From an uncultured Gemmatimonadota bacterium (lineage in GTDB: Bacteria > Gemmatimonadota > Gemmatimonadetes > Gemmatimonadales > GWC2-71-9): a DNA stretch of 9,772 nucleotides. A model generated the notes under the pieces. The model made no database searches, was not told the DNA's origin, and saw nothing but the letters and a program-made list of their open reading frames with translations. The stretch spans positions 1 through 9,772 of the forward strand of contig CAJVYZ010000057.1 of NCBI GenBank assembly GCA_913009915.1, written 5' to 3'. The position numbers and the translations under genes are program-made. How positions within the stretch are numbered: the stretch's first letter is position 1; each line of letters starts with the position of its first letter. Positions 48 to 9,772 of the stretch are shown here, one piece after another.

Positions 48-141
48 TGCGGATTTCGGAGTCATTCGGACACCTGTTTCGGACCGGTTCGGACACCCGT
101 TTCGGAGTCATTCGGACACCCATTTCGGGCATTCGGACACC
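48..141 (+). repeat. IS21 left end: terminal repeat plus four phased transposase-site repeats
   Basis: The terminal repeat begins at base 48. The motif TTCGGACACC occurs at 65-74, 88-97, 111-120 and 132-141, that is at 23, 23 and 21 bp intervals. IS21-type ends are known to carry multiple repeated sequences that act as IstA binding sites. The regular spacing of about two helical turns fits that role, though binding itself is inferred. Confidence 0.8.
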
Positions 142-219
142 TTGCTGAGGAGTTGGGCGCTGGATAACTGAGGCGGGCCGGGCATCCCTTGGGGGACCTT
201 CACCCAGGAGTGGTAGCCC

Positions 220-1773
220 ATGCCCGCACGGAGGTTGTCCATGCGCAAGATCTGTGAGCTGCTGCGACTCCAGGCCGAGGGCTTGAGTGTGCGGCAGATG
301 TCCGAGAGCCTCGGCGTGCCGCGCAGCACCGTGGCCGATTATCTGCACCGCATCGAGCGGGCCGGGGTGTCGTGGCCGTTGCCCGAGGGGACCGCTGAGG
401 CCGCGCTGGTCGAGCGGCTGTTCGGTCCCGAGGCCGGCCAGCGAGCGCGGCGTCCGACCCCTGATTGGGCGGTGATCCATGGGGAGCGCAAGCGTCCCGG
501 GGTCACCCTTCAGCTGCTGTGGCTGGAGTACAAGCAGGCCACGCCCGAGGGCTACCAGTACACCCAGTTCTGTGAGTACTACAAGCGGTGGCGGGCACAG
601 CTCGATCCCGTCCTGCGGCAGACGCACACCGCTGGGGAGAGGGTGTTCGTCGACTACGCCGGGCACACCATGCCGGTGGTGGATCGGCAGACGGGCGATA
701 TCCATGAGGCCCAGATCTTCGTGGGTACCCTGGGGGCCAGTCACTACATCTACACCGAGGCGACCTGGACCCAACGGTTGCCCGATTGGATCGGCGCGCA
801 CGGGCGGATGTATCAGGACTTTGGCGGCGTCCCGGCACTGACCGTACCCGACAATCTGAAGGCCGGCGTGCGCCACGCCTGCTATTACGAGCCCGATCTC
901 AATCCGACCTATCAGGATCTCGCCACCCACTATGGCACGGTCGTGCTACCGACCCGGGTGGCGCACCCGCGTGACAAGGCCAAAGTGGAGACCGGCGTGC
1001 AACTGGTCGAGCACTGGTGCCTGGCCCCGCTGCGGAACCACACCTTCTTCAGTCTCGCCGAGCTGAATCGCGCGCTACGGAGCCAATGCGAGGCCCTCAA
1101 TGCCCGACCCTTTCAGAAACTCCCAGGTACCCGCCGCCAACTGCTCGAGACGCTGGAGCGGCCGGCCCTGAAGCCGTTACCCGCCACGGCCTTCGAGTAC
1201 GCCGAATGGAAGAAGGCCCGCGTCAACATCGACTACCACATCCAGGTCGACGGGCATCTCTACAGTGTGCCCTACGCTCTGGTGCGCCAGGAAGTGGACG
1301 TGCGCCTTAGCGCCAAGACCGTCGAAGTGCTGCACCGCGGCAAACGGGTGGCCGCGCATCGGCGCAGTCAGCTCCGGGGACGTTTCACCACCGAGCCCGG
1401 TCATCGCCCCAAGGCCCACCGACAGCATCTCGAGTGGACCCCGTCGCGCTTGATCCGCTGGGGCACGTCGAGCGGCAGCCACACGGGCCGGCTCGTCCAG
1501 GCGATCCTCGAAAGCAAGCCCCATCCGGAACAGGGATACCGCACCTGTCTCGGCCTGATCAGCTTGGCCCGACGCTACGGCGCCGAGCGCCTAGACGCGG
1601 CCTGTGCCCGTGCCCTGCGCAGTGGCACGCTGCGATATCGCTCGGTGAAGTCGATCCTCGAACACAGCCTCGACCGGCTGCCACCCGAGGACCAGCAAAC
1701 GGTGCTGGCCCTACCGGCCGCACACGCCCACCTGCGGGGCCCGGACTACTACGCCACACTCGCTTCCGAGTAA
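220..1773 (+). CDS. istA: IS21-family DDE transposase IstA
   Basis: IstA is the transposase that binds the IS ends and performs DNA cleavage and strand transfer, working with the ATPase IstB. The 517-residue product has an N-terminal helix-turn-helix at about residues 10-45 (GLSVRQMSESLGVPRSTVADYL region). A retroviral-integrase-type DDE core follows: Asp145 in VFVDYAG, Asp211 in TVPDNLKAGV and Glu257 in DKAKVETG. The C-terminal half contains the usual Mu-type beta-barrel-like region (YSVPYALV, about residues 347-354). The length is normal for this IstA branch. The ATG at 220 has AGGAG nine bases upstream. A second in-frame ATG at 241 is possible, but the MPARRLSMRKI start is typical of close relatives. 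istB follows after 12 bases. Confidence 0.95.
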   Translation: MPARRLSMRKICELLRLQAEGLSVRQMSESLGVPRSTVADYLHRIERAGVSWPLPEGTAEAALVERLFGPEAGQRARRPTPDWAVIHGERKRPGVTLQLLWLEYKQATPEGYQYTQFCEYYKRWRAQLDPVLRQTHTAGERVFVDYAGHTMPVVDRQTGDIHEAQIFVGTLGASHYIYTEATWTQRLPDWIGAHGRMYQDFGGVPALTVPDNLKAGVRHACYYEPDLNPTYQDLATHYGTVVLPTRVAHPRDKAKVETGVQLVEHWCLAPLRNHTFFSLAELNRALRSQCEALNARPFQKLPGTRRQLLETLERPALKPLPATAFEYAEWKKARVNIDYHIQVDGHLYSVPYALVRQEVDVRLSAKTVEVLHRGKRVAAHRRSQLRGRFTTEPGHRPKAHRQHLEWTPSRLIRWGTSSGSHTGRLVQAILESKPHPEQGYRTCLGLISLARRYGAERLDAACARALRSGTLRYRSVKSILEHSLDRLPPEDQQTVLALPAAHAHLRGPDYYATLASE

Positions 1774-1785
1774 GGAGGATCACCC

Positions 1786-2577
1786 ATGCTGCTGCAACAG
1801 ACCATCGACCGACTTCATGAGCTGCGCCTCACCGGGATGGCGCAGGCCCTCGACGAACAACGGGGCCAGCCCGATCTCCACGATATCGCCTTCGAAGACC
1901 GGCTCGCCTTACTGCTCGAACGAGAAACCACGGCACGTGCTGACCGACGCCTGACTCGCCTGCTGCAGCTGGCCAAACTGCGCTTGCCCGCCACGGTCGA
2001 AGATCTCGACTTCAAGACGCCCCGTGGGCTCGATCGCTCGGTCATGCTCCGCCTCGCCGACGGCGAGTGGATCCGCCAGCACCACGTCGTCCTGATCGTC
2101 GGGGCCACCGGCACCGGCAAGACCTATGTGGCGTGCGCCTTGGGCCATTGTGCCTGCCGCCAGGGGCTGCGCGTACGCTACTTCCGGCTGCCACGCCTGT
2201 TTGAGGACATCGCCCTGGCCCGGGCCGATGGATCGTACGGCAAACTCCTCGCCGCACTCCTCAAAACCGATTTGCTCATCCTCGATGATTGGGGCCTGGC
2301 GCCCCTGGGCGATCGCGAGAGGCGCGATCTACTCGAAATCATCGAAGATCGATACGGCAGGCGGGCGACCCTGGTCACCAGCCAACTGCCGATCGAGCAC
2401 TGGCACGAAATGATCGGAGACCCCACCTTTGGGGACGCCATCCTCGACCGACTGGTCCATCAGGCGCATCGCATCACCCTCAAGGGTCGCTCGATGCGTC
2501 GGAAAGACCCGCCCAAAACGAAGACACAAACCACGGAGACCAGGAAGAAAAAGACCACCACAACAGCGAGGAACTAA
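1786..2577 (+). CDS. istB: IS21-family helper ATPase IstB
   Basis: IstB is the AAA+ ATPase, related to DnaC, that assembles on target DNA and licenses IstA-mediated insertion. The 263-residue product has an N-terminal helical region, a Walker A motif GATGTGKT at residues 106-113, a Walker B LLILDD at 163-168, and a sensor-like TSQ at 198-200. The C-terminal DAILDRLVHQAHRITLKGRSMR segment is characteristic of IstB. It ends in a lysine/threonine-rich tail of about 25 residues (KTKTQTTETRKKKTTTT) that is longer and more repetitive than the core family needs. The start ATG is preceded by AAGGAGG in the 12-bp gap after the istA stop, so the two genes form one operon with strong translation initiation for istB. 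Confidence 0.95.
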   Translation: MLLQQTIDRLHELRLTGMAQALDEQRGQPDLHDIAFEDRLALLLERETTARADRRLTRLLQLAKLRLPATVEDLDFKTPRGLDRSVMLRLADGEWIRQHHVVLIVGATGTGKTYVACALGHCACRQGLRVRYFRLPRLFEDIALARADGSYGKLLAALLKTDLLILDDWGLAPLGDRERRDLLEIIEDRYGRRATLVTSQLPIEHWHEMIGDPTFGDAILDRLVHQAHRITLKGRSMRRKDPPKTKTQTTETRKKKTTTTARN

Positions 2578-2602
2578 ACCAGCGGCCACTCCCCAGAGCC
2601 GA

Positions 2603-2672
2603 TGTCCGACATCAACCGAACCCGGTGTCCGACATCAACCGAACTGGGCGTCCGGATACGCCGAAATCCGCA
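2603..2672 (-). repeat. IS21 right end: terminal repeat plus direct repeats
   Basis: The 19-base sequence TGTCCGACATCAACCGAAC occurs exactly at 2603-2621 and 2626-2644, a 23-bp period. The terminal inverted repeat follows and ends at 2672. Read on the minus strand these give repeated GGACACC/GGACATC-type motifs like those of the left end. They are likely transposase binding sites. Confidence 0.8.
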
Positions 2673-2896
2673 ATGTCCTCCGAAAATCTATCGATCGCTC
2701 GAAATACCTTAGATAGCGACGTTCCGCCCTTGAATATGAGACGTGGTGATTGATCTCGATCTGAAAAGAGGTGGCCTAGAGTCCAGCACACCCAGAAGTC
2801 CTTCTCCACAATGATTGGGTCGAACCCCTTCTTAGCCGCAGCCTCCTGGAACAGCTCAGCCATTTCTTCTTGGGGCCACTTACCTACCTGGTACAT
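2673..2896 (-). pseudogene. abiEii: AbiEii-type nucleotidyltransferase toxin, truncated by the IS
   Basis: AbiEii is the toxin of the AbiE type IV toxin-antitoxin/abortive infection systems, a nucleotidyltransferase-fold enzyme. About 75 residues remain, starting MYQVGKWPQEEMAEL and including EKDFWV at 31-36, FKGGTSLSK at 55-63 and RFSEDI at 70-75. The family motif runs FSEDID; here the IS right end begins exactly after the Ile codon, so the second acidic residue of the metal site becomes Ala. The reading frame then runs 19 codons through IS DNA to a stop at 2612. Most of the usual length of about 300 residues is missing and is not found beyond the IS left end. The ATG overlaps the antitoxin stop (TGATG), which implies translational coupling before disruption. 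The toxin is almost certainly inactive. Confidence 0.85.
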
Positions 2897-3510
2897 CAGG
2901 CATACCCTTGGGCCAGTTGTGCTACGAATGGCAGCATCCAATCAGGGGCCTTATGGGCAACTCGCCTCAAGTCAAGTTTATCTGTAGGCGAGAGGTGACT
3001 TCGCAGAATGTCTATCGTCGCATCGTCAACGCCATCGGGGCCTAAATAGCGGAGTGCCTGTAGAGCGTAACCGGACATCTTGCCTGCGCCTGCTAGTGTC
3101 TTTGAACCAGCAGGTCGGAGAGTGATCGACTGCCCACCAAGCTTGATGACCCTGCGGGTTGCTGAATCCGTGAGGTAGACCGTCCTCGCAGGCACTTGTG
3201 TCGAGAGACCGAGAGAGTTCGCTGCTCGTGCTTTGGTCACCTGCAACACTCCATCCTTCCCAACCGCAGCCCTCGCAACCGAGTCAAGAGAAGGAGAAAG
3301 TACGCCAAGTCGCTTGCTTGTCTTCGGGTACAGATAAATCCCCCAGGCCACTCGGCTGAGAATGCCTTTCTTGGCGAGCCTTGATAGGGTTTGATCGACG
3401 GCTGCCCGGCTCATATCTATATCTAGGAAATCTTTCGCAGTATGGACAGAACCACGGCCCTTGCCACGAATGCTCTTAAGTATCTTATTTGCAACAGAAT
3501 TAGCTCTCAT
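2896..3510 (-). CDS. abiEi: AbiEi-type antitoxin / autorepressor (DUF6088-like)
   Basis: AbiEi antitoxins neutralise the AbiEii nucleotidyltransferase and repress their own promoter through an N-terminal winged helix. The 204-residue product has that domain at about residues 1-75 (ANKILKSIRGKGRG, then a recognition-helix-like DMSRAAVDQTLSRLAKKGIL, then GIYLYPK). It ends in a C-terminal region of the kind that neutralises toxin. I chose the ATG at 3510 because GAGGTG sits at 3520-3515, and a longer in-frame start at 3543 would lie upstream of the predicted transcription start. The stop overlaps the toxin start by one base. With the toxin cut by the IS, this is an orphan antitoxin that may still repress its promoter. 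AbiE-family assignment rests on the fold pattern plus the adjacent AbiEii remnant. Confidence 0.85.
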   Translation of the reverse strand: MRANSVANKILKSIRGKGRGSVHTAKDFLDIDMSRAAVDQTLSRLAKKGILSRVAWGIYLYPKTSKRLGVLSPSLDSVARAAVGKDGVLQVTKARAANSLGLSTQVPARTVYLTDSATRRVIKLGGQSITLRPAGSKTLAGAGKMSGYALQALRYLGPDGVDDATIDILRSHLSPTDKLDLRRVAHKAPDWMLPFVAQLAQGYA

Positions 3511-3524
3511 AACACACCTCTTAT

Positions 3525-3562
3525 ATGTCAGATAATATACCATAAATATCTGACATTATCAA
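3525..3562 (-). promoter_or_regulatory. abiE promoter with palindromic operator
   Basis: On the minus strand there is a -35 TTGATA (3562-3557), a 17-bp spacer and a -10 TATATT (3539-3534). A perfect 10-bp inverted repeat, ATGTCAGATA (3525-3534) and TATCTGACAT (3547-3556), flanks and overlaps the -10. One arm abuts the -35 and the other covers the region just after the -10. AbiEi proteins are known to autorepress by binding inverted repeats at their promoter, so this is very probably the AbiEi operator. The predicted leader is about 17 nt and contains the ribosome binding site. Confidence 0.8.
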
Positions 3563-3608: not shown

Positions 3609-3630
3609 ACTAGCTAACGTTGCACTATGG
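3609..3630 (-). repeat. Core-site repeat shared with 7260-7281 (attC half-site?)
   Basis: These 22 bases match 7260-7281 at 19 positions, including the stretch ACTAGCTAACG. On the minus strand both copies read ...CGTTAGCTAGT, containing GTTAGCT, which resembles the GTTRRRY core that starts an integron cassette. Here it lies about 100 bases upstream of the abiEi start. I could not find a convincing partner arm for a full attC, so this may be a decayed half-site. Confidence 0.45.
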
Positions 3631-3793: not shown

Positions 3794-3851
3794 GCCTGAC
3801 GTTTGGCATCAGCCGCCGCCGTAGGCGGCCGGCTGCATGCCATTGTTATGC
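3794..3851 (-). repeat. attC site, short 58-bp type
   Basis: On the minus strand the site starts with R'' GCATAAC and ends with R' GTCAGGC. Between them is a stem of 17 paired bases: TGGCAT, CAGCCG and CCGCC pair with GGCGG, CGGCTG and ATGCCA around a TAC loop. Two unpaired G bases sit in the left arm. Paired L boxes, two extrahelical bases in the R''-proximal arm, a 2-3 base unpaired central spacer and a tiny terminal loop are the defining features of attC. The R' core has C where GTTRRRY expects the second T. R'' begins four bases after the stop of the upstream phosphotransferase gene. Confidence 0.8.
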
Positions 3852-3855
3852 CTGG

Positions 3856-6498
3856 CTACGACAGAAGGCGGATCACCCCCGAGGTCCCGTCGACTTCGAC
3901 CCTCTGGCCGTCGTGAAGCTTCGTCATCAACCGATCGATGCCCACAACGCACGGCTTTCCGTACTCGCGCGCGACCACCGCTCCGTGCTGCAGAACCCCG
4001 CCGACCTCGAGCACGACTGCGGCGGCGTTCACGAACAGCGGCGTCCAGCCCGGGTCCGTCGTGTACGCGACCAATACGTCCCCCTTGTGGACGGGCTTCT
4101 CGTGTGGGTCGCGGAGCACCTTGACCGGGCCTGCGACCACACCGGGCGACACAGCCATCCCGCTCAGCTCGCCGGGCTTCTCCTCGCGCGGAGCGGGCCG
4201 AAGGATCCGGCCTCGGGAGTCGATCACTTGAGGGAACTCCGTCACCTGGGCCTTGAGTATCTTGAGGAAACGCGTCCGCTCCTCGCGGACCTCTCGCAGG
4301 TCCAACGAAGGATCCAAGGTGGCCGATTCGAGGTCGCGGACCGTCAGATCGAAGACATCCTCGGCTGCATCGAGACGCCCCTCCCCGACCAGGCGTTTAC
4401 CCTCAATCAGAGCGCGCTTGCGGAGTGCGTAGTTGAACAAGACTATTTCGTGTTTGGGCGTGTCGCGCGTTCCGGCAAACAGGTCGATGATCCGGTGGAC
4501 GCGGCGCAACAGCACCCGCCGCAGCCAACCCAAACGGCTCATCAACTCTTCGTAGGCTTGTCGCCGCTCCTCTACGTGGCGCCGATGCGCAGCTTCCGGA
4601 TCAAAGCCCTCGTCGTCGATGGTCATGAAGGACATCTGCCTCAGGGCGAGACCAGGGTCGTCCGCATAGCGCAGGCTCGCCTGGTCCATCTCCAGGGGAC
4701 CGCGCCAGCCGTACGTCGAGAGGAAGGCGTCCCACGCGCTCAGGAACTCCGCTGACATCTGGCGATTCTCGACACGTTCGGCTAATCGGGTCAAGTCCTC
4801 GAAGTCGGATGGGTTCAACAGCTTGGCCAGGCGAAACAGCGCGATCCCCATCTCGACGACAACGTTGCCGGTGAAGCCGAGGTGGAGATTCTCGGCGAGA
4901 GCGTTCAACTCGGCTGACTTCTTGCCCACCACACGATTGACCGATTCCATTGCGATCAAGCCGGCCCCCAACGCTCCTCCCGTATCGCCGAACATCTGTA
5001 ACATGGGTGCGACGCAGGTCCGCCGGAATTCGGCGATAGGAAGGCTATAGTCGAGGTTCTCAGTAAACTCTATCTCGTAGGCGTCGACCTTCCGCTGATA
5101 CGTTCGGTATGCGCGTTCGGGAAACAGGATGGCCCACAGTGTTTTCCAGAAAACACCGCGAACCAGCCACAAAACTCTGGGAACCGACCATAGGATCCCG
5201 ATTCGCATCCAGGGCGGTCTCGTGGCCGCGCGGTACCGCTTCTCGTCGATGTTGGCTAAAATCTCCCCCATCAGCACGTCATTGGGGGCGCTTGCCTTCG
5301 ACATTTTCTTTGGGCTCGCCAGCCACATCATGTTGGACAAATCCATGTACATGCGGCCGCCCGCGAAGAATACCAGACCCTTCTCAGGGGTGAGCTCGAT
5401 TCCGAACTTCTCCAGAAAGGAGCCGACGAAATCTTCCTGCCAATCCCGCTCCATTGGCGAGATGGGTGCATTGATTGTCATCCCCTTCGACAGCGCAGCG
5501 TCCGCGTACAGTCGTTTGCGTTCGCCGGGCTTAGTAAGCATTTCGGGCGGAAGCGGCACGTAAGTCGTGATGGGGCGTGCTTGCAGCACGTGGAGCTGAC
5601 CGCCGGCGTAGGCCCACTCGATGTCCGTCGGCTTCTCGTAAAGGTCCTCGATTCGACACATTACGTCGGTCAGCTCGCCGAGCTGGGCATCGGTGAGGGT
5701 GAGCTCCGCCGAACGGTGGCCCTTTCGCTCGATGGTGCCGCCGTCGGGACCCAGCCAGATCGAGACTTGCTTGGCGCCCAGGTTCTTGTCCACGACCTGC
5801 CGACCTACCTTGTCGACGATGAAGTGATCGGGTGAGACGAGCCCGGCGACGACCGACTCCCCCAAGCCCCAGTTCGCGTCAATGACGGCCTCGTCGTAGT
5901 CGTTCGTGAGCGGGTTGAGCGAAAAGCCCACGCCGGCTACCTCGCTGTCGATCTGCTGCTGCACGACCACGGCGATGCGCGGCGACAGAACGTCGAAGCC
6001 GTGCTCCTTCTTGTAGACGAGCACGCGCCCATCGAGGCTCGAGGCAAAGCAGTGCCGCACCGCGTCGTCCAAGTCGGCTGGGCGCACGCCCAGTCGGGTC
6101 TCGTAGCCACCGGCGAATGAGGCGGACGTCAGGTCTTCCTCCGGCGAGGACGAGCGCACCGCGAAGAGCATGTCGTCACCCTGCGCTGCGAGGTCCTTGC
6201 GCAGGTCCTCCAGGGCTTGCCGCTGGGTCGACGTCAGCGGGAGGGCAGGGCAGAGCCCCCTCAGCTCGTTGCAGAGGGTCGCCCACTTATCCGGCGTCGC
6301 ATGGGCCAGCGCCGTCCACGTCGCGGACGCCTGAATCTCGTCGAACCAGGGCGCGAAGAACTCCGTGGTGAGCACGGCGCCGGGCGGAACGGGCAAGCCC
6401 GCCTCGACCATCCGCATCAGCGAATAGCCCTTGCCGCCGACCTCCGCGAGGGTCGTCTGCTCGGTGCCGGGAAACGAAACGATCAGGGTCACGTCCAT
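3856..6498 (-). CDS. PEP-synthase / rifampin-phosphotransferase-like enzyme
   Basis: This is a three-domain PEP-utilising phosphotransferase, predicted cytosolic. Such enzymes split ATP with an N-terminal ATP-grasp domain, pass the beta-phosphate to a swivelling His domain and deliver it to a substrate bound by the variable middle domain. In the 880-residue product, GGKG is at 21-24, the VRSSSPEED...FAGGYET nucleotide region at about 114-134, GFSLNP at 191-196, and DIEWA...LQARPITT at about 292-312. The middle domain contains YGWRGPLEMD, comparable to the YG.R...EMD/EID pattern of rifampin phosphotransferases. The His domain has TDPGWTPLF and GGVLQHGAVVAREYG, with the probable phospho-carrier at His838. 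The length matches rifampin phosphotransferases (about 865). I prefer the ATG at 6498, since GGKG normally lies about 20 residues in; a TTG at 6540 would add 14 residues. Neither has a good ribosome site. The substrate is unproven. The gene sits alone between two attC sites. Confidence 0.85.
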   Translation of the reverse strand: MDVTLIVSFPGTEQTTLAEVGGKGYSLMRMVEAGLPVPPGAVLTTEFFAPWFDEIQASATWTALAHATPDKWATLCNELRGLCPALPLTSTQRQALEDLRKDLAAQGDDMLFAVRSSSPEEDLTSASFAGGYETRLGVRPADLDDAVRHCFASSLDGRVLVYKKEHGFDVLSPRIAVVVQQQIDSEVAGVGFSLNPLTNDYDEAVIDANWGLGESVVAGLVSPDHFIVDKVGRQVVDKNLGAKQVSIWLGPDGGTIERKGHRSAELTLTDAQLGELTDVMCRIEDLYEKPTDIEWAYAGGQLHVLQARPITTYVPLPPEMLTKPGERKRLYADAALSKGMTINAPISPMERDWQEDFVGSFLEKFGIELTPEKGLVFFAGGRMYMDLSNMMWLASPKKMSKASAPNDVLMGEILANIDEKRYRAATRPPWMRIGILWSVPRVLWLVRGVFWKTLWAILFPERAYRTYQRKVDAYEIEFTENLDYSLPIAEFRRTCVAPMLQMFGDTGGALGAGLIAMESVNRVVGKKSAELNALAENLHLGFTGNVVVEMGIALFRLAKLLNPSDFEDLTRLAERVENRQMSAEFLSAWDAFLSTYGWRGPLEMDQASLRYADDPGLALRQMSFMTIDDEGFDPEAAHRRHVEERRQAYEELMSRLGWLRRVLLRRVHRIIDLFAGTRDTPKHEIVLFNYALRKRALIEGKRLVGEGRLDAAEDVFDLTVRDLESATLDPSLDLREVREERTRFLKILKAQVTEFPQVIDSRGRILRPAPREEKPGELSGMAVSPGVVAGPVKVLRDPHEKPVHKGDVLVAYTTDPGWTPLFVNAAAVVLEVGGVLQHGAVVAREYGKPCVVGIDRLMTKLHDGQRVEVDGTSGVIRLLS

Positions 6499-6554
6499 AC
6501 CTTCGTGCTCGATTGTTTGGGTAGAAGACGCCGCTCGCAACGCCCCATTGGTGA

Positions 6555-6577
6555 GTTACCTTTTGTCAAGTGGTAAC
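6555..6577. promoter_or_regulatory. Inverted repeat with TTGACA upstream of the phosphotransferase
   Basis: GTTACC (6555-6560) and GGTAAC (6572-6577) form a perfect 6-bp inverted repeat. The 11-base spacer contains, on the minus strand, a consensus -35 hexamer TTGACA (6569-6564). No acceptable -10 lies 16-18 bp downstream (GGGGCG is there), so a sigma70 promoter is doubtful. It could be an operator or chance. Confidence 0.25.
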
Positions 6578-6624
6578 CACCCGATCAGCGTGTCTCCGTT
6601 GTATCGATAGAAAAGCCTTGCGCG

Positions 6625-6754
6625 GCATAACGTCTTGCCGTTGAACTGCGGGCCGTACTTCCGGTATGCCGAAATGAACGGCCGGGCCTACCAATACTGA
6701 CTACTATCAGGGTCCTTGGCCCACCGGGCCCGCTGTTCCAATGGCCGGTTAGAT
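6625..6754 (-). repeat. attC site, long 130-bp type
   Basis: On the minus strand R'' is ATCTAAC, a perfect RYYYAAC, and R' is GTTATGC. The arms GGCCATTGGAACAGCGGGCC and GGCCCGCAGTTCAACGGC pair almost fully, with one extra G in the left arm, the expected side for an extrahelical base. The central region is long and also self-complementary in part. The site closely resembles that at 7870-8000: the first 77 bases differ at about nine positions. Long, mutually similar attC sites are typical of sedentary chromosomal integron arrays. Confidence 0.85.
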
Positions 6755-6761
6755 GCCCTTG

Positions 6762-7060
6762 CTAGCTCGAGCCACCCAATGGGCCCGGCCCTTCTCGGCG
6801 GACATGAACTACAGCGAGCACTTCAACAGCCTCGCTGCTGACCCTATAGATGATCCGGTATGGATGTTCAAGAAGCTCACGGACGTTCGGAGAATCGGTT
6901 TCAGCCACGAGGTGGCCGGACTCAGGAAAAGCTGCGAGCTGCCCCCGCGGTCCATGACTCTCTCTATCATCCGATCGGCGTAGAGTGTAGATGTGCTCGA
7001 GATATACTTGTGGATGGCCGAGAGGTGGCCTAGGGCGGTCTCGGTCCAGAGGATCTTCAC
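6762..7060 (-). pseudogene. ParE-like toxin, frameshifted
   Basis: RelE/ParE toxins are small proteins: ParE members poison gyrase and RelE members cut mRNA. The start GTG at 7060 gives MKILWTETALGHLSAIHKYI...YADRMIERVMDRG, a normal ParE N-terminus. The frame as written then becomes nonsense and stops at 6809. One frame over, the sequence continues GGQLAAFPESG...NVRELLEHPYRIIYRV...EVLAVVHVRREGP, a textbook ParE C-terminus, with its stop TAG at 6762-6764. One missing G in the run of five at 6942-6946 explains this. The repaired protein would be 99 residues and would stop seven bases before the attC R'' core. GTGA overlaps the antitoxin stop. It is either inactive or a sequencing error in a homopolymer. 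Confidence 0.85.
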
Positions 7061-7248
7061 CGCTTAGGCCGAATTCTAGCCACCGCCTCCTCGTGGGATA
7101 GGACCCTCCCCTGCTGGACGTCCTCTAGGCCGGCATCGATTGCCTGGCGCACATAGATGTCATACATGAGGTCGTCCCAGGACGCATCGTCCGGCAGCCG
7201 ATCCACTAGCTTGTGGGCTTCCTGCTTCACGTCTCTAACGTCATCCAT
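7057..7248 (-). CDS. Small antitoxin of a ParE-type module
   Basis: The 63-residue acidic protein contains LPDDASWDDLMYDIYVRQAIDAGLEDVQQGRVLSHEEAVAR. This is the pattern of short antitoxins that pair with ParE/RelE toxins (SWDD.MY..YVRQ.I..GL....GRV). It should bind and neutralise the downstream ParE-like product and probably bind its own promoter. The ATG at 7248 has GGAGG five bases upstream. It begins only 15 bases after the GTTAGCT core at 7269-7263, the short leader typical of an integron cassette. Its TGA overlaps the toxin GTG by four bases. If the toxin really is frameshifted, this antitoxin is an orphan. Confidence 0.75.
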   Translation of the reverse strand: MDDVRDVKQEAHKLVDRLPDDASWDDLMYDIYVRQAIDAGLEDVQQGRVLSHEEAVARIRPKR

Positions 7249-7259
7249 CGTAGCCTCCG

Positions 7260-7304
7260 ACTAGCTAACGCTGAAATATGGCCGCATCCAATGGCCCGTT
7301 ATGT
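7260..7304 (-). repeat. Short or degenerate attC-like junction between two TA cassettes
   Basis: On the minus strand R''-like ACATAAC (7304-7298) and R'-like GTTAGCT (7269-7263) bound only 42 bases. A GGCC/GGCC pair and AACG/CGTT ends can form an imperfect stem with asymmetric spacers. The upstream toxin stop TAA lies inside ACATAAC, and the next antitoxin starts just beyond GTTAGCT, so the position is exactly where an attC belongs. The stem is poor, so the site may be decayed or partly deleted. It shares 19 of 22 bases with 3609-3630. Confidence 0.5.
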
Positions 7305-7598
7305 GTCAATGCGCGATCTCCATCTACGAGGGTCCCGCCGGTTGTGCAGACAGGCCAGGACCTCGATGGTATCTGAGTCACGGAGTCGGTAGTACATGAC
7401 ATACGGGAACTTGGGGAGTAATGCGCGGCGCACATCACCGGCGACTAGTGGGAAGGCCTCGGGCATGAGCTTTATCAAGCCCTCGACTGCAAGAAGAGCG
7501 TGGCTGAACAATGCCGCTAACCCGGGTCGTTGGTTTTCGTACCAACCCCGGGCTTCCTCAAGGTCGCCGGCAGCCTCGACCCTATAGAGGACCTTCAC
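7299..7598 (-). CDS. RelE/ParE-family toxin
   Basis: The 99-residue product begins MKVLYRVEAAGDLEEARGWYENQRPGL and ends EVLACLHNRRDPRRWRSRIDT. It has the RelE/ParE superfamily layout: an N-terminal beta strand, a two-helix hairpin, FPY.MYYR and VLAC.H.RRDP.RW. This is the plasmid-stabilisation branch; whether it targets gyrase or mRNA cannot be told from sequence. I chose the GTG at 7598, four bases after the antitoxin stop. The frame is open further upstream but overlaps the antitoxin gene and has no toxin similarity. The stop TAA is embedded in the attC-like core ACATAAC, the classic end of a cassette gene. The frame is intact, unlike the neighbouring ParE. Confidence 0.85.
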   Translation of the reverse strand: MKVLYRVEAAGDLEEARGWYENQRPGLAALFSHALLAVEGLIKLMPEAFPLVAGDVRRALLPKFPYVMYYRLRDSDTIEVLACLHNRRDPRRWRSRIDT

Positions 7599-7602
7599 AG
7601 AG

Positions 7603-7818
7603 CTATTGATCGTTGAAGAGTCTGGCCCGCATTTCCTCGGCCGAGACGAACTGAGGGTTGGGGTCAGCCAACCGTCGCTCAAGGGCGTCTCTATGCCAGT
7701 CAGGGATCGGGACCTGGGATGGTTCCGCGGCCAGGCTATCCCAGAGATCCTCAACGAGTTGCAGCCGCTCGTCAGGGGGCAGGCGCAGGACATCGTCTCG
7801 AAGTGTGCTGTCACTCAT
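7603..7818 (-). CDS. Addiction-module antitoxin, Unstab_antitox (TIGR02574) type
   Basis: The 71-residue product MSDSTLRDDVLRLPPDERLQLVEDLWDSL...DWHRDALERRLAD...SAEEMRARL matches the small antitoxin family with the LP..ERL.L.E.LWDSL helix and a C-terminal W...L..RL toxin-wrapping region. It should neutralise the RelE/ParE toxin that starts four bases after its stop. The ATG is at 7818 and the attC core ends at 7870, leaving about 50 bases of leader. The ribosome site is weak. A 6-bp inverted repeat, GTGCCA and TGGCAC with a four-base gap (7856-7871), overlaps the cassette start and could be an operator. It forms a complete two-gene cassette with the toxin. Confidence 0.85.
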   Translation of the reverse strand: MSDSTLRDDVLRLPPDERLQLVEDLWDSLAAEPSQVPIPDWHRDALERRLADPNPQFVSAEEMRARLFNDQ

Positions 7819-7855
7819 ACTTGAATCTCGGGGTCTCGGGGCTGGGGCGCAATAG

Positions 7856-7871
7856 GTGCCACGATTGGCAC
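7856..7871. promoter_or_regulatory. Small inverted repeat upstream of the TA pair
   Basis: GTGCCA (7856-7861) and TGGCAC (7866-7871) are perfect inverted copies separated by CGAT, 38 bases upstream of the antitoxin ATG and overlapping the attC R' edge. Toxin-antitoxin complexes usually repress through such palindromes, so an operator is plausible. No clear -35/-10 pair was found. Confidence 0.3.
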
Positions 7872-8000
7872 ATAACGTCCTGCCGTGGAACTGCGGGCCG
7901 TACTTCGGGCATGCCGCAATGAATGGCCGGGCCTACCTATGCTGACGAGTGATCCTAACTGCCGGCCCACCGGGCCCGCTGTTCCAACGGCTGGTTAGGC
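7870..8000 (-). repeat. attC site, long 131-bp type
   Basis: On the minus strand R'' is GCCTAAC, a perfect consensus core, and R' is GTTATGT. The arms GCCGTTGGAACAGCGGGCC and GGCCCGCAGTTCCACGGC pair nearly completely, with one extra T in the left arm as an extrahelical base. It is a close homologue of the 6625-6754 site apart from about 20 bases in the middle. A TAA stop in an upstream reading frame lies inside GCCTAAC. The orientation agrees with the other two attC sites. Confidence 0.85.
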
Positions 8001-8126
8001 GACACCTTTCTGTACCCACCGTAGATCGAGCTTCCGGTTACGGGACGCACCGTAAAGAGAGGATGAGTCCTGTATGAAGGGGAGAGGAGAAAGGTGCCGG
8101 CGAGATTCCGGCCCAACCTGCGCCGG
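7995..8126 (-). other. 3' tail of an unidentified cassette ORF
   Basis: A minus-strand frame is open for 43 codons after a TGA at 8127-8129. It ends ...SSSLYGASRNRKLDLRWVQKGVA with its TAA inside the attC core GCCTAAC. No start codon is present in the open stretch, so at most this is the remnant of a cassette gene whose 5' part is lost. A hairpin TTACGG/CCGTAA (8038-8055) lies within it. I do not recognise the peptide. The stop position is the main support. Confidence 0.3.
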
Positions 8127-8469
8127 TCAAAGGCCGATCTGGATGGAGGCCTAGCAGGGATTCATGTTCTGGAGGACCTTCAGGACCGGGTCTTCATCTC
8201 GTGAGGTCGGAAGTTCGAGTCGCCCCAGGCGCACTGAGGTGATATGGTGATCCCGCTTCGTGTTACGATGCTTGGTGGGATTCGTGTTAGTCGTGTAGTT
8301 TGCTCGGCTGCCTAGTGCCTGAGTTCAGCGGCAGATGAAAGAGGCGCGGCTTCTTGCGAAGGCAAGTCCAAGCCGAAGCTGCTGCACCAATGAGCGGGTC
8401 TCCTCAAGGAGTTCCATATGAGCGTTATCGGATATCCTGCTCTCCCACCGACGCCAAGCGATCCACGCC
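8127..8469. other. Gene-poor stretch with a tRNA T-arm-like scrap
   Basis: No reading frame here has a convincing start and ribosome site. Plus-strand bases about 8199-8233 read CTCGTGAGGTCGG, AAGTTCGAGTC and CCAGGCGCA, resembling the variable loop, T-loop and acceptor 3' strand of a tRNA. However, the T-stem does not pair properly and no matching 5' half exists. TTCGTGTTA occurs twice 24 bases apart (8257, 8281). A short minus-strand frame with MELLEETRSLVQQLRLGL lies near 8330-8420, unrecognised. This appears to be the boundary between the cassette array and the permease operon. Confidence 0.35.
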
Positions 8470-9237
8470 CTACGTCGGGTCCGAGGCGCTTGCGCGTCGA
8501 AACAGCAAAGCCGATCCGAGCCACAGCGTGGCAAAGAATCCAGTCGCGATCAATACATCTCTCGGCCAGACCGGTCCACTGGTGCCTAGCCCAGCGGCCA
8601 GCGCGATCACGGCGACCAACATCTGAGCAAGCGCCGTCGCGAACAACGCGCGCGCCATTCCATGTGGCTGGAAGCGCGCGATTAGGGCACCGATAATTCC
8701 GACGGCGAGCACCCCGATGTACATCAAGTTGGCGGGGTTTCCCTCGTTTCCGATGATGCCAACGGCAAGGTTTACCCAGACAAGGAGGAGCGCTGCCGCG
8801 ACCGCAACGCCTACGGCGGCTCGGTGCGCGATATGGCCTGCTTTCCTCGCTATCAGCTCATACGTGATACCAGCGCCGAACAGGAGGACGCCGGCGACGG
8901 CGAAATCGGCCAGGTCCCAGACCACTCCATCGGTGAACTGCATCGCTACCAATGGCAGCAACAATATGACCGCTGTCGCGAGCGCAACGCGGATAATGCT
9001 TTTCTTTTGCATGATGATGACTGTCATGTTCTCTCCCATAAGCCCTGCGAATGTTTCGACGAACATCCAGAGAACGAAGGCGAATTGTCCCTTTCCTTCC
9101 TCTGCGCGCTCTCGGAGAAGATCGTTGAAGGTTTGCTCCATCGGTTCTCCAAAGCGCTCGTGGTACGGCTTCGGGTAGAGACGAAGCAGTGTTGCGTACC
9201 AGCTTCGGAATCGTCGTCTCGAGTGTTCATGTGCCAT
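8470..9237 (-). CDS. Six-helix membrane protein with a permease-prefix-like N-terminus
   Basis: The 255-residue protein has a soluble N-terminal region of about 70 residues with RLYPKPYHERFGEPMEQTFNDLLRE. This resembles the prefix domain found at the start of MacB/FtsX-like orphan permeases in Acidobacteriota and relatives. About six hydrophobic segments follow (roughly residues 80-101, 107-129, 140-163, 170-189, 195-218 and 224-248), and it ends RRASASDPT. It lacks the large periplasmic domain of MacB, so it is not a full permease; the function is unknown. I chose the ATG at 9237, 11 bases inside the end of the PadR gene; a TTG at 9243 would add two residues. No strong ribosome site is seen, consistent with coupling to PadR translation. 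It is probably controlled by that PadR protein. Confidence 0.8.
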   Translation of the reverse strand: MAHEHSRRRFRSWYATLLRLYPKPYHERFGEPMEQTFNDLLRERAEEGKGQFAFVLWMFVETFAGLMGENMTVIIMQKKSIIRVALATAVILLLPLVAMQFTDGVVWDLADFAVAGVLLFGAGITYELIARKAGHIAHRAAVGVAVAAALLLVWVNLAVGIIGNEGNPANLMYIGVLAVGIIGALIARFQPHGMARALFATALAQMLVAVIALAAGLGTSGPVWPRDVLIATGFFATLWLGSALLFRRASASDPT

Positions 9238-9589
9238 ACGCAACAGTACTCGGCGAGAGCCGTTTTTGTTTGGCGACCGCTACGACCTTGCGGTATCGCT
9301 GCAACTCCGCCGTGAGCGCTTTTTGGCCGAGGCCGGTGATTTTGTAATAGATCCGCCGCTCGTCGTCCATTTCAGGGTCTATCTTCTTGTTGCTCTCGCG
9401 TATCAAGCCGGCCTCGATCATGCGACCAATCGAGCCGTAAAGCGTACCCGGCCCCATGTTCACCTTTCCCTCCGAGTCCGACTCGACCTGCTTCATGATG
9501 CCATAGCCGTGCCGCTCTTCCGTAGAAAGCGCGAGAAGGATATGAAGCACCGCCGGAGTGAGGGGCGCGTTGCTTGTGCTCTTTGCCAT
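9227..9589 (-). CDS. PadR-family transcriptional regulator
   Basis: This 120-residue winged-helix repressor belongs to the PadR family, short subfamily. Visible signatures are LTPAVLHILLAL...RHGYGIMKQV (residues 10-35), MGPGTLYGSIGRMIEAGLI (45-63) with the recognition helix and wing, and DDERRIYYKITGLG (75-88). A short C-terminal helix for dimerisation follows. PadR regulators next to permease genes usually sense small molecules and repress the adjacent membrane genes. The ATG at 9589 is the only sensible start. It lies six bases downstream of a -10 element, so the message may have no leader. The gene overlaps the downstream membrane-protein gene, indicating one transcript. Confidence 0.92.
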   Translation of the reverse strand: MAKSTSNAPLTPAVLHILLALSTEERHGYGIMKQVESDSEGKVNMGPGTLYGSIGRMIEAGLIRESNKKIDPEMDDERRIYYKITGLGQKALTAELQRYRKVVAVAKQKRLSPSTVAYGT

Positions 9590-9696: not shown

Positions 9697-9772
9697 CTAC
9701 TCGTCCCGCAACGCCTCGACCACATCGATGCGGGTGGCCCGCCGGGCCGGGAGATAGCTGGCGACCAAGGCG
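9697..9772 (-). CDS. FtsX/MacB-type ABC transporter permease, C-terminal end (partial)
   Basis: The frame entering from the right edge reads ALVASYLPARRATRIDVVEALRDE and stops at 9697. The segment A.YLPARRA.R.D...ALR.E is the conserved C-terminus of MacB/FtsX-like permeases: the last membrane helix, then a basic cytoplasmic tail. Only about 24 residues are present. It lies 107 bases upstream of the PadR start on the same strand, so a permease-PadR-membrane protein cluster is likely, of the kind seen with the duplicated orphan permeases of Acidobacteriota. Confidence 0.8.
   Translation of the reverse strand, partial: ALVASYLPARRATRIDVVEALRDE

Follow-up and report, generated by a model that had tools for sequence, protein, structure and literature searches.

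How does a row of gene cassettes come to stand among ordinary chromosomal genes on a contig that carries no recognizable integrase gene? The question is raised by a stretch of 9,772 nucleotides from an uncultured member of the Gemmatimonadota (GenBank assembly GCA_913009915.1, contig CAJVYZ010000057.1), here called the window, in which three attC recombination sites lie on the minus strand between positions 3,794 and 8,000. The window makes up the entire contig C57 of the draft genome G000, an assembly of 3.47 Mb in 676 contigs with a completeness of 76.5%, and was compared with 102 genomes of the family and 395 of the phylum, among which G073 is the sister genome from the same genus. We consider it highly probable that the window holds an integron cassette cluster in which three attC sites are present and the integrase gene intI is missing, that is, a cluster of attC sites lacking integron integrases (CALIN), and that this cluster likely owes its assembly to an integrase that operated from another place in the genome.

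An attC site folds on one strand into a hairpin, in which the integrase cleaves the R' box (G^TT) for joining to another box of this kind. Two long sites of this kind are present in the window, C (7,870-8,000, 131 bp; R'' GCCTAAC, R' GTTATGT) and B (6,625-6,754, 130 bp; R'' ATCTAAC, R' GTTATGC), together with a short site, A (3,794-3,851; R'' GCATAAC, R' GTCAGGC), which is of a type unlike that of B and C; all three point to the minus strand. Measured against the consensus R'' RYYYAAC / R' GTTRRRY, B and C each deviate by a single mismatch overall. An initial annotation made from the letters alone had assigned R''/R' core sites to all three palindromes; in A, the R' box is GTCAGGC and does not begin with GTT.

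The presence of sites was decided by covariance models, since an arm-pairing detector run with loose limits barely exceeded shuffled sequence (11 matches in the window versus a mean of 7.3). The first model, R1, was trained on those long sites of G000 that are whole, seven in number and including B and C; they share a mean column identity of 83% and are homogeneous, as expected of a sedentary chromosomal integron. R1 returned nine same-strand copies at E <1e-8, all of them on the contigs C57, C358, C377 and C278, and also recognized sites in other genera. Because R1 contains B and C themselves, G000 was excluded from a second model, R2, which was trained on 22 attC sites of the genomes G074, G015, G005, G010, G057 and G056; in the first three of these, intI shares the contig with the sites used. 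The structure of R2 is covarying, with 95.1% of the cells paired versus 78.9% in shuffles and 14 of 25 pairs changed on both sides versus 9.6 in shuffles. In the relative G010, R2 matches a very regular cassette array (L113, G010:C5) of 20 same-strand sites within 14.4 kb, most of them about 90 bp long.

The reading of the palindromes as attC sites, for which the initial annotation had named a covariance search as the check, was borne out by the model free of G000 sequence. R2 assigned 45.5 bits to B (E 1e-10), 40.2 bits to C (E 3e-9) and 35.5 bits to A (E 5e-8), against a best non-site match of 10.4 bits in the window, a plus-strand maximum of 9.4 bits and a maximum of 10.3 bits across six non-array contigs of G000 (38.7 kb). 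Folding of the recombining strand gave z values relative to shuffles of -3.8 (A), -4.3 (B) and -2.4 (C), and equally good folds occurred in 0, 0 and 2 of 200 shuffles, respectively. Sites B and C are of common descent, as had been proposed, with 89% and 94% similarity in two blocks of 76 and 35 nucleotides (nt); the proposed likeness to sedentary chromosomal integrons also fits, as relatives carry intI followed by such sites. Strong BLAST relatives of palindrome B (E to 1e-17) are restricted to 4 of the 676 contigs (C57, C358, C377 and C278), with weaker, short matches on further contigs, and on the one strong-copy contig read in detail the sites sit between same-strand genes. Thus, palindromes scattered through the genome without cassette boundaries, which had been named as an observation that would speak against the proposal, were not seen among the strong copies. 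A whole-genome R2 scan of G000, which missed site A through its first-look filter, added single sites on C455 and C232. The one on C455 (L132, 1,371-1,439; 42.8 bits) lies between two genes, has no GTT at its R' end and is doubtful.

The genes of the array are unidirectional and end at attC sites. The stop codon of the cassette 3 gene lies 4 nt ahead of the R'' of A, that of the cassette 2 toxin (in its second frame) 7 nt ahead of the R'' of B, and that of the ParE toxin of cassette 1 within the R'' of a further site, X; there is no gene stop near site C. These positions are in agreement with the initial statement that stops fall in the cores or at most 7 nt away. The count of three sites given there overlooked X (7,263-7,304, minus strand), a dead remnant of an attC site in which the R'' of cassette 1 (ACATAAC) stands beside a foreign L'-R' half (GTTAGCT). 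X does not fold (z +0.8) and is not matched by R2. Its L'-R' pattern recurs in a half-site, Y (3,612-3,630, minus strand), and nowhere else in G000; a 24-base L'-R' pattern had 0 matches in viral contigs. Via Y and an AbiE gene pair the row continues past A towards an insertion sequence (IS) of the IS21 type.

Further evidence comes from the joints between cassettes. A free cassette is a circle; its start, represented in an array by the R' of the preceding site, is therefore expected to pair with the R'' of the same cassette. This rule was evaluated on 76 sites from 15 contigs, forming 61 neighbouring pairs, of which 55 were scored and six were dropped where the script found no core triplet; two sites cut by contig ends, two distant sites on L103 and sites standing alone on their contig were left out. 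The four variable core letters were fully matched in 49 of the 55 neighbouring pairs; the corresponding figures were 1135 of 4970 for pairs taken at random and 30 of 65 when the two ends of one site were paired. Likewise, positions 8-12 matched in 78% of neighbours versus 44% and 46% in the two controls. In the window, the R'' of X agrees with the R' of C in 8/9 letters and the R'' of A with the R' of B in 7/9, each time with a complete core; the null rate per GTT is 3.6e-5 for at least 8/9 and 1.0e-3 for at least 7/9 letters. The R'' of B does not match the R' of C (core 2/4). The match between start and R'' is therefore found at two joints, C-X and B-A. Since the R'' of X matches the start at C, X is read as the former attC site of the first toxin-antitoxin cassette. 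The simple rule that a start is the reverse complement of its own R'' distinguishes intact from dead joints and, without experiments, indicates where attI lies.

On its 5' side, the array is bordered by chromosomal genes for 1.3 kb, namely a gene for a 257-amino-acid protein and one for a PadR-like regulator (8,470-9,589, minus strand; PF03551, 49.8 bits). The pair is present in G074 and G094 with 77-78% nucleotide identity, and the 257-amino-acid gene in G039 with 68%. The homology begins at window positions 8,498 (G074), 8,479 (G094) and 8,474 (G039), by the stop of the 257-amino-acid gene at 8,470, and the gene that follows the shared pair is a deaminase in G074 and an aldehyde dehydrogenase in G094. 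A second array contig, C358, also borders on chromosomal DNA: its kinase gene occurs in 85 of the 102 family genomes, and of the 24 closest relatives inspected, 17 have behind the kinase another conserved gene (without a Pfam or NCBIfam name) that is absent here. R2 detected no attC site in 30 loci of relatives that match the place of the window and that of C358. Because the array adjoins chromosomal genes that are found without attC in relatives, it is probably a true CALIN and not a split integron, as judged from sequence. Similarly, on C232 (L133) an attC site (160-267, 38.1 bits) overlaps the stop of a chromosomal gene, which by eye we take to be coaD-like, and the DNA beyond the site up to the contig end has 32% GC versus 66%. 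Frames at the ends of the contigs L006, L007, L031, L132 (C455) and L133 (C232) look like read-through into sequencing adapters, which points to faulty assembly in the draft. Near the 5' junction of the array, window positions 8,190-8,233 resemble by eye the 3' part of a tRNA gene that neither ARAGORN nor Rfam called; on the whole window, ARAGORN called no tRNA and Rfam gave no match at E <=5. At the other end of the chromosomal flank, positions 9,697-9,772 (minus strand) resemble by eye the end of an ATP-binding cassette (ABC)-type permease gene.

Integrase genes occur in the family. The model TIGR02249 scored above its cut-off in 33 of the 102 genomes (44 at E <=1e-40), and a recheck of two of these integrases gave about 150 bits with XerC and 434-435 bits with the model for integron integrases (cut-off 265). 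R2 was run on stretches of 30 contigs, covering 30 of the 36 above-cut-off matches, mostly with 1.5 kb flanks and in ten cases longer. Sites were seen on 11 of the 30, and in 11/11 they lay on the intI strand past the 3' end of intI, which places the gene upstream of the cassettes; eight of these 11 contigs stem from genomes outside the R2 training set. As the 5' side of the window array is chromosomal, intI is absent from the place that it usually occupies in this family. The initial annotation had reported no intI in the window and had suggested a look through the genome: neither the window nor the draft genome yielded one, TIGR02249 having no match on the window contig and tblastn returning only noise. 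The two best TIGR02249 matches in G000, on C39 and C100, were rejected as XerC-like and as an XerC-like fragment, and a third, on C274, reached 22.8 bits. Neither intI nor attI, which define a complete integron, was found in the window.

A likely attI site may have been left on C358. By the start rule, position 1803 of this contig, tgtccaatactaGTTAGATGGCC, agrees in 12/12 letters with the R'' of the first attC site there. Applied to ten of the 11 contigs with intI and attC (one was left out), the same rule yielded starts in seven, six of them 102-340 nt after intI; the start in G074 lies 763 nt after intI with an R2 site in between and may not be attI. A weight matrix made from the seven starts ranked the C358 position first among 483 GTT sites in 69.5 kb of G000 (15.2 versus 6.9), the matrix being loose (leave-one-out scores of -6.5 to 10.0) and the C358 score deriving in part from likeness to G077. 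Position 1803 is thus likely to be an attI site; alternatively, it might be an attG-like site. Upstream of it are genes for a major facilitator superfamily (MFS) transporter and a cytidylate-kinase-like protein, and a tblastn search for an intI remnant ahead of it returned only noise. A neighbour gene of the intI locus of G074 was not found in G000, which is uninformative given the incomplete genome and a search without positive control.

Three other explanations were weighed. That the palindromes are terminators or scattered repeats which are intergenic by chance is exceedingly improbable: it could draw on site A, which alone is short and has a changed core, and on the single R2 matches on C455 and C232, the former without GTT, but it is opposed by R2 scores of 35-45 bits over a background of about 10, by the start/R'' match at two joints, by homologues on four contigs only and by the finding that in relatives intI adjoins the same kind of site. 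A complete integron, whose intI contig went unassembled so that the CALIN is an effect of the assembly, would be in keeping with 676 contigs at 76.5% completeness and with the inflation of CALIN counts by draft genomes that has been described (PMC9024848). We nevertheless regard this as quite unlikely, as intI lies 5' of the cassettes in 11/11 family contigs and the genes found there in the window are chromosomal and shared with relatives; the side of C358 before the likely attI is chromosomal as well.

Alternatively, part of an integron array might have been moved here by a rearrangement of a general kind, either IS-driven or homologous, without an integrase acting at a new place. This is the least improbable of the three, and we consider it possible, if still clearly less likely than not to be true. 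An IS21 element stands at the far end of the row and the 5' junction shows no recognizable cassette start; against this, the element belongs to the 3' end, where it interrupts the AbiE toxin gene, and the 5' side, on which homology to relatives breaks off at a gene stop, shows no mobile element. Several observations also weigh against our view of the window as a cassette cluster built by an integrase. For the cassettes ending in C and B, the search for a start reached 6/9 and 5/9 letters at best and identified none, which leaves the 5' junction at 8,003-8,474 unexplained; the R' of A is not GTT; and a second GTT, located within the gene, likewise agrees with the R'' of A in 7/9 letters, with a core of 2/4. 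Furthermore, the missing intI proves little in a genome that is 76.5% complete.

The genes carried by the cassettes are all on the minus strand. Cassette 1 encodes an antitoxin of the TIGR02574/PF09720 type (7,603-7,818; 53.9 and 59.5 bits, above both cut-offs) and a ParE-type toxin whose start is unsettled (7,299-7,602; PF05016, 28.3 bits, cut-off 23; stop TAA at 7,299-7,301). Cassette 2 has a small open reading frame in the antitoxin position (7,057-7,248), a frame alone with no Pfam or NCBIfam match, and a ParE-like toxin in two frames (6,762-7,060), of which 6,809-7,060 has no match and 6,762-6,947 matches PF05016 with 30.6 bits; the split is due either to damage or to a sequencing error. 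On C278 (L032, 758-1,415), genes for a HigB-like toxin and a helix-turn-helix (HTH) antitoxin are oriented against the array. Cassette 3 (3,856-6,498) encodes an 880-amino-acid protein resembling PPDK_N/phosphoenolpyruvate (PEP)-utilising phosphotransferases (PF01326, 230 bits; PF00391, 79 bits). Its best NCBIfam model is a phosphoenolpyruvate-synthase subfamily (454.9 bits, below the cut-off of 945); an assignment as rifamycin phosphotransferase was rejected, NF041857 giving 381.7 bits, far below its cut-off of 999. The protein was found in one of the 102 family genomes (E to 1e-100) and in three of the 395 phylum genomes (E to 1e-150), the other two being 64% and 38% identical, and its 12 best relatives from outside, one of them named as Bacteroidetes, are 85-89% identical. 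Since it is rare in the family and has such close relatives elsewhere, the pattern fits an origin of cassette 3 from outside; its attC site, A, differs in type from B and C.

Beyond Y, an AbiEi-like antitoxin gene (DUF6088; 2,896-3,543, minus strand; PF19570, 134.8 bits) is followed by the N-terminal piece of an AbiEii-type toxin gene (2,673-2,941, minus strand; PF08843, 39.7 bits), which is cut by the IS21 element (48-2,672, plus strand). The latter has inverted ends and encodes a transposase (220-1,773; NF033546, 283.7 bits) and a helper ATPase (1,786-2,577; NF038214, 271.9 bits), both above the cut-offs. No target-site duplication is seen in the few bases flanking the element within the toxin gene, and the contig ends only about 47 bases beyond it.

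Based on these features, we infer that an integrase acted in trans on the place occupied by the row and was later lost from the lineage, unless it escaped sequencing; the row is now likely to be mostly frozen. With the hairpin of X gone, two toxin-antitoxin cassettes are joined into one; the core of A is altered, the AbiE cassette is interrupted by IS21, and some joints between cassettes are thus worn. The toxin-antitoxin pairs would be expected to counter deletion of the row.

A half-site elsewhere in G000 raises the question of whether worn sites can still take part in exchange. G000 (C278) and G073 (C76) share a katG-like peroxidase gene (PF00141) together with the site that follows it, at 98.3% identity across 2,396 nt. 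The final 100 nt ahead of R' are 99% identical and GTTAG is the same, with 17/50 and 9/50 identities beyond it; the DNA of the two genomes thus diverges exactly from the R' crossover. In both, the site is without its R''-L'' half. The remnant scored 60.7 and 58.5 bits with R1, and 12.2 bits with R2 in G000 with no match there in G073, and in folding it does not surpass shuffled sequences (z -1.0 and -0.8), compared with -4.7 for an intact sister site. Within G000, sites keeping only L'-R' are found after katG on C278, on C377 and at Y, and X is mixed. The lesion, being common to both genomes, is probably older than their split, and the change of neighbour is probably younger in at least one line. 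It might be speculated that a half-attC with L'-R' only serves as a live, double-stranded, attI-like acceptor, so that worn attC sites become insertion platforms; the shared lesion with different DNA beyond would then mean at least one R' exchange after loss of the hairpin. This idea rests on a single case and is, in our estimation, unlikely; gene conversion around katG, transfer between lines or a deletion ending there by chance are alternatives. If it were true, half-attC acceptors would provide a concrete route for the spread of cassettes beyond attI.

Integrons are listed for the Gemmatimonadota (PMC8618304), and a large array with more than ten attC sites has been described for Gemmatirosa kalamazoonesis (PMC9024848), which belongs to the same phylum and is likened here by its description rather than its sequence. 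Taxon-specific attC models exist, and the Gemmatimonadota are not among the 11 taxa named in the part consulted (PMC8352920). In Treponema, intI lies in the direction of the cassettes (PMC3607928), as in 11/11 family contigs; Treponema belongs to another phylum, and the window is without intI. As in known CALINs, two or more equally oriented attC sites lie between cassette genes without intI; the window differs in no matter of principle, only by including one dead site and one half-site and by a likely attI that remains on a different contig. CALINs apart from the integrase locus occur in about half of the Xanthomonas genomes (PMC12444791), and these clusters, too, stand by ordinary chromosomal genes; many of these genomes have kept intI, whereas none was found in the G000 draft. 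The attG sites, genomic insertion points of cassettes as cited in PMC12901181, would explain cassettes by chromosomal genes without intI, but no such junction is recognizable in the window. Integrons of Gemmatimonadota, CALINs and off-platform insertion are thus all already published, and the window represents a further case of an established type of element; it contributes a well-supported cassette cluster to a phylum whose integrons, in the literature consulted, have been listed but little described.

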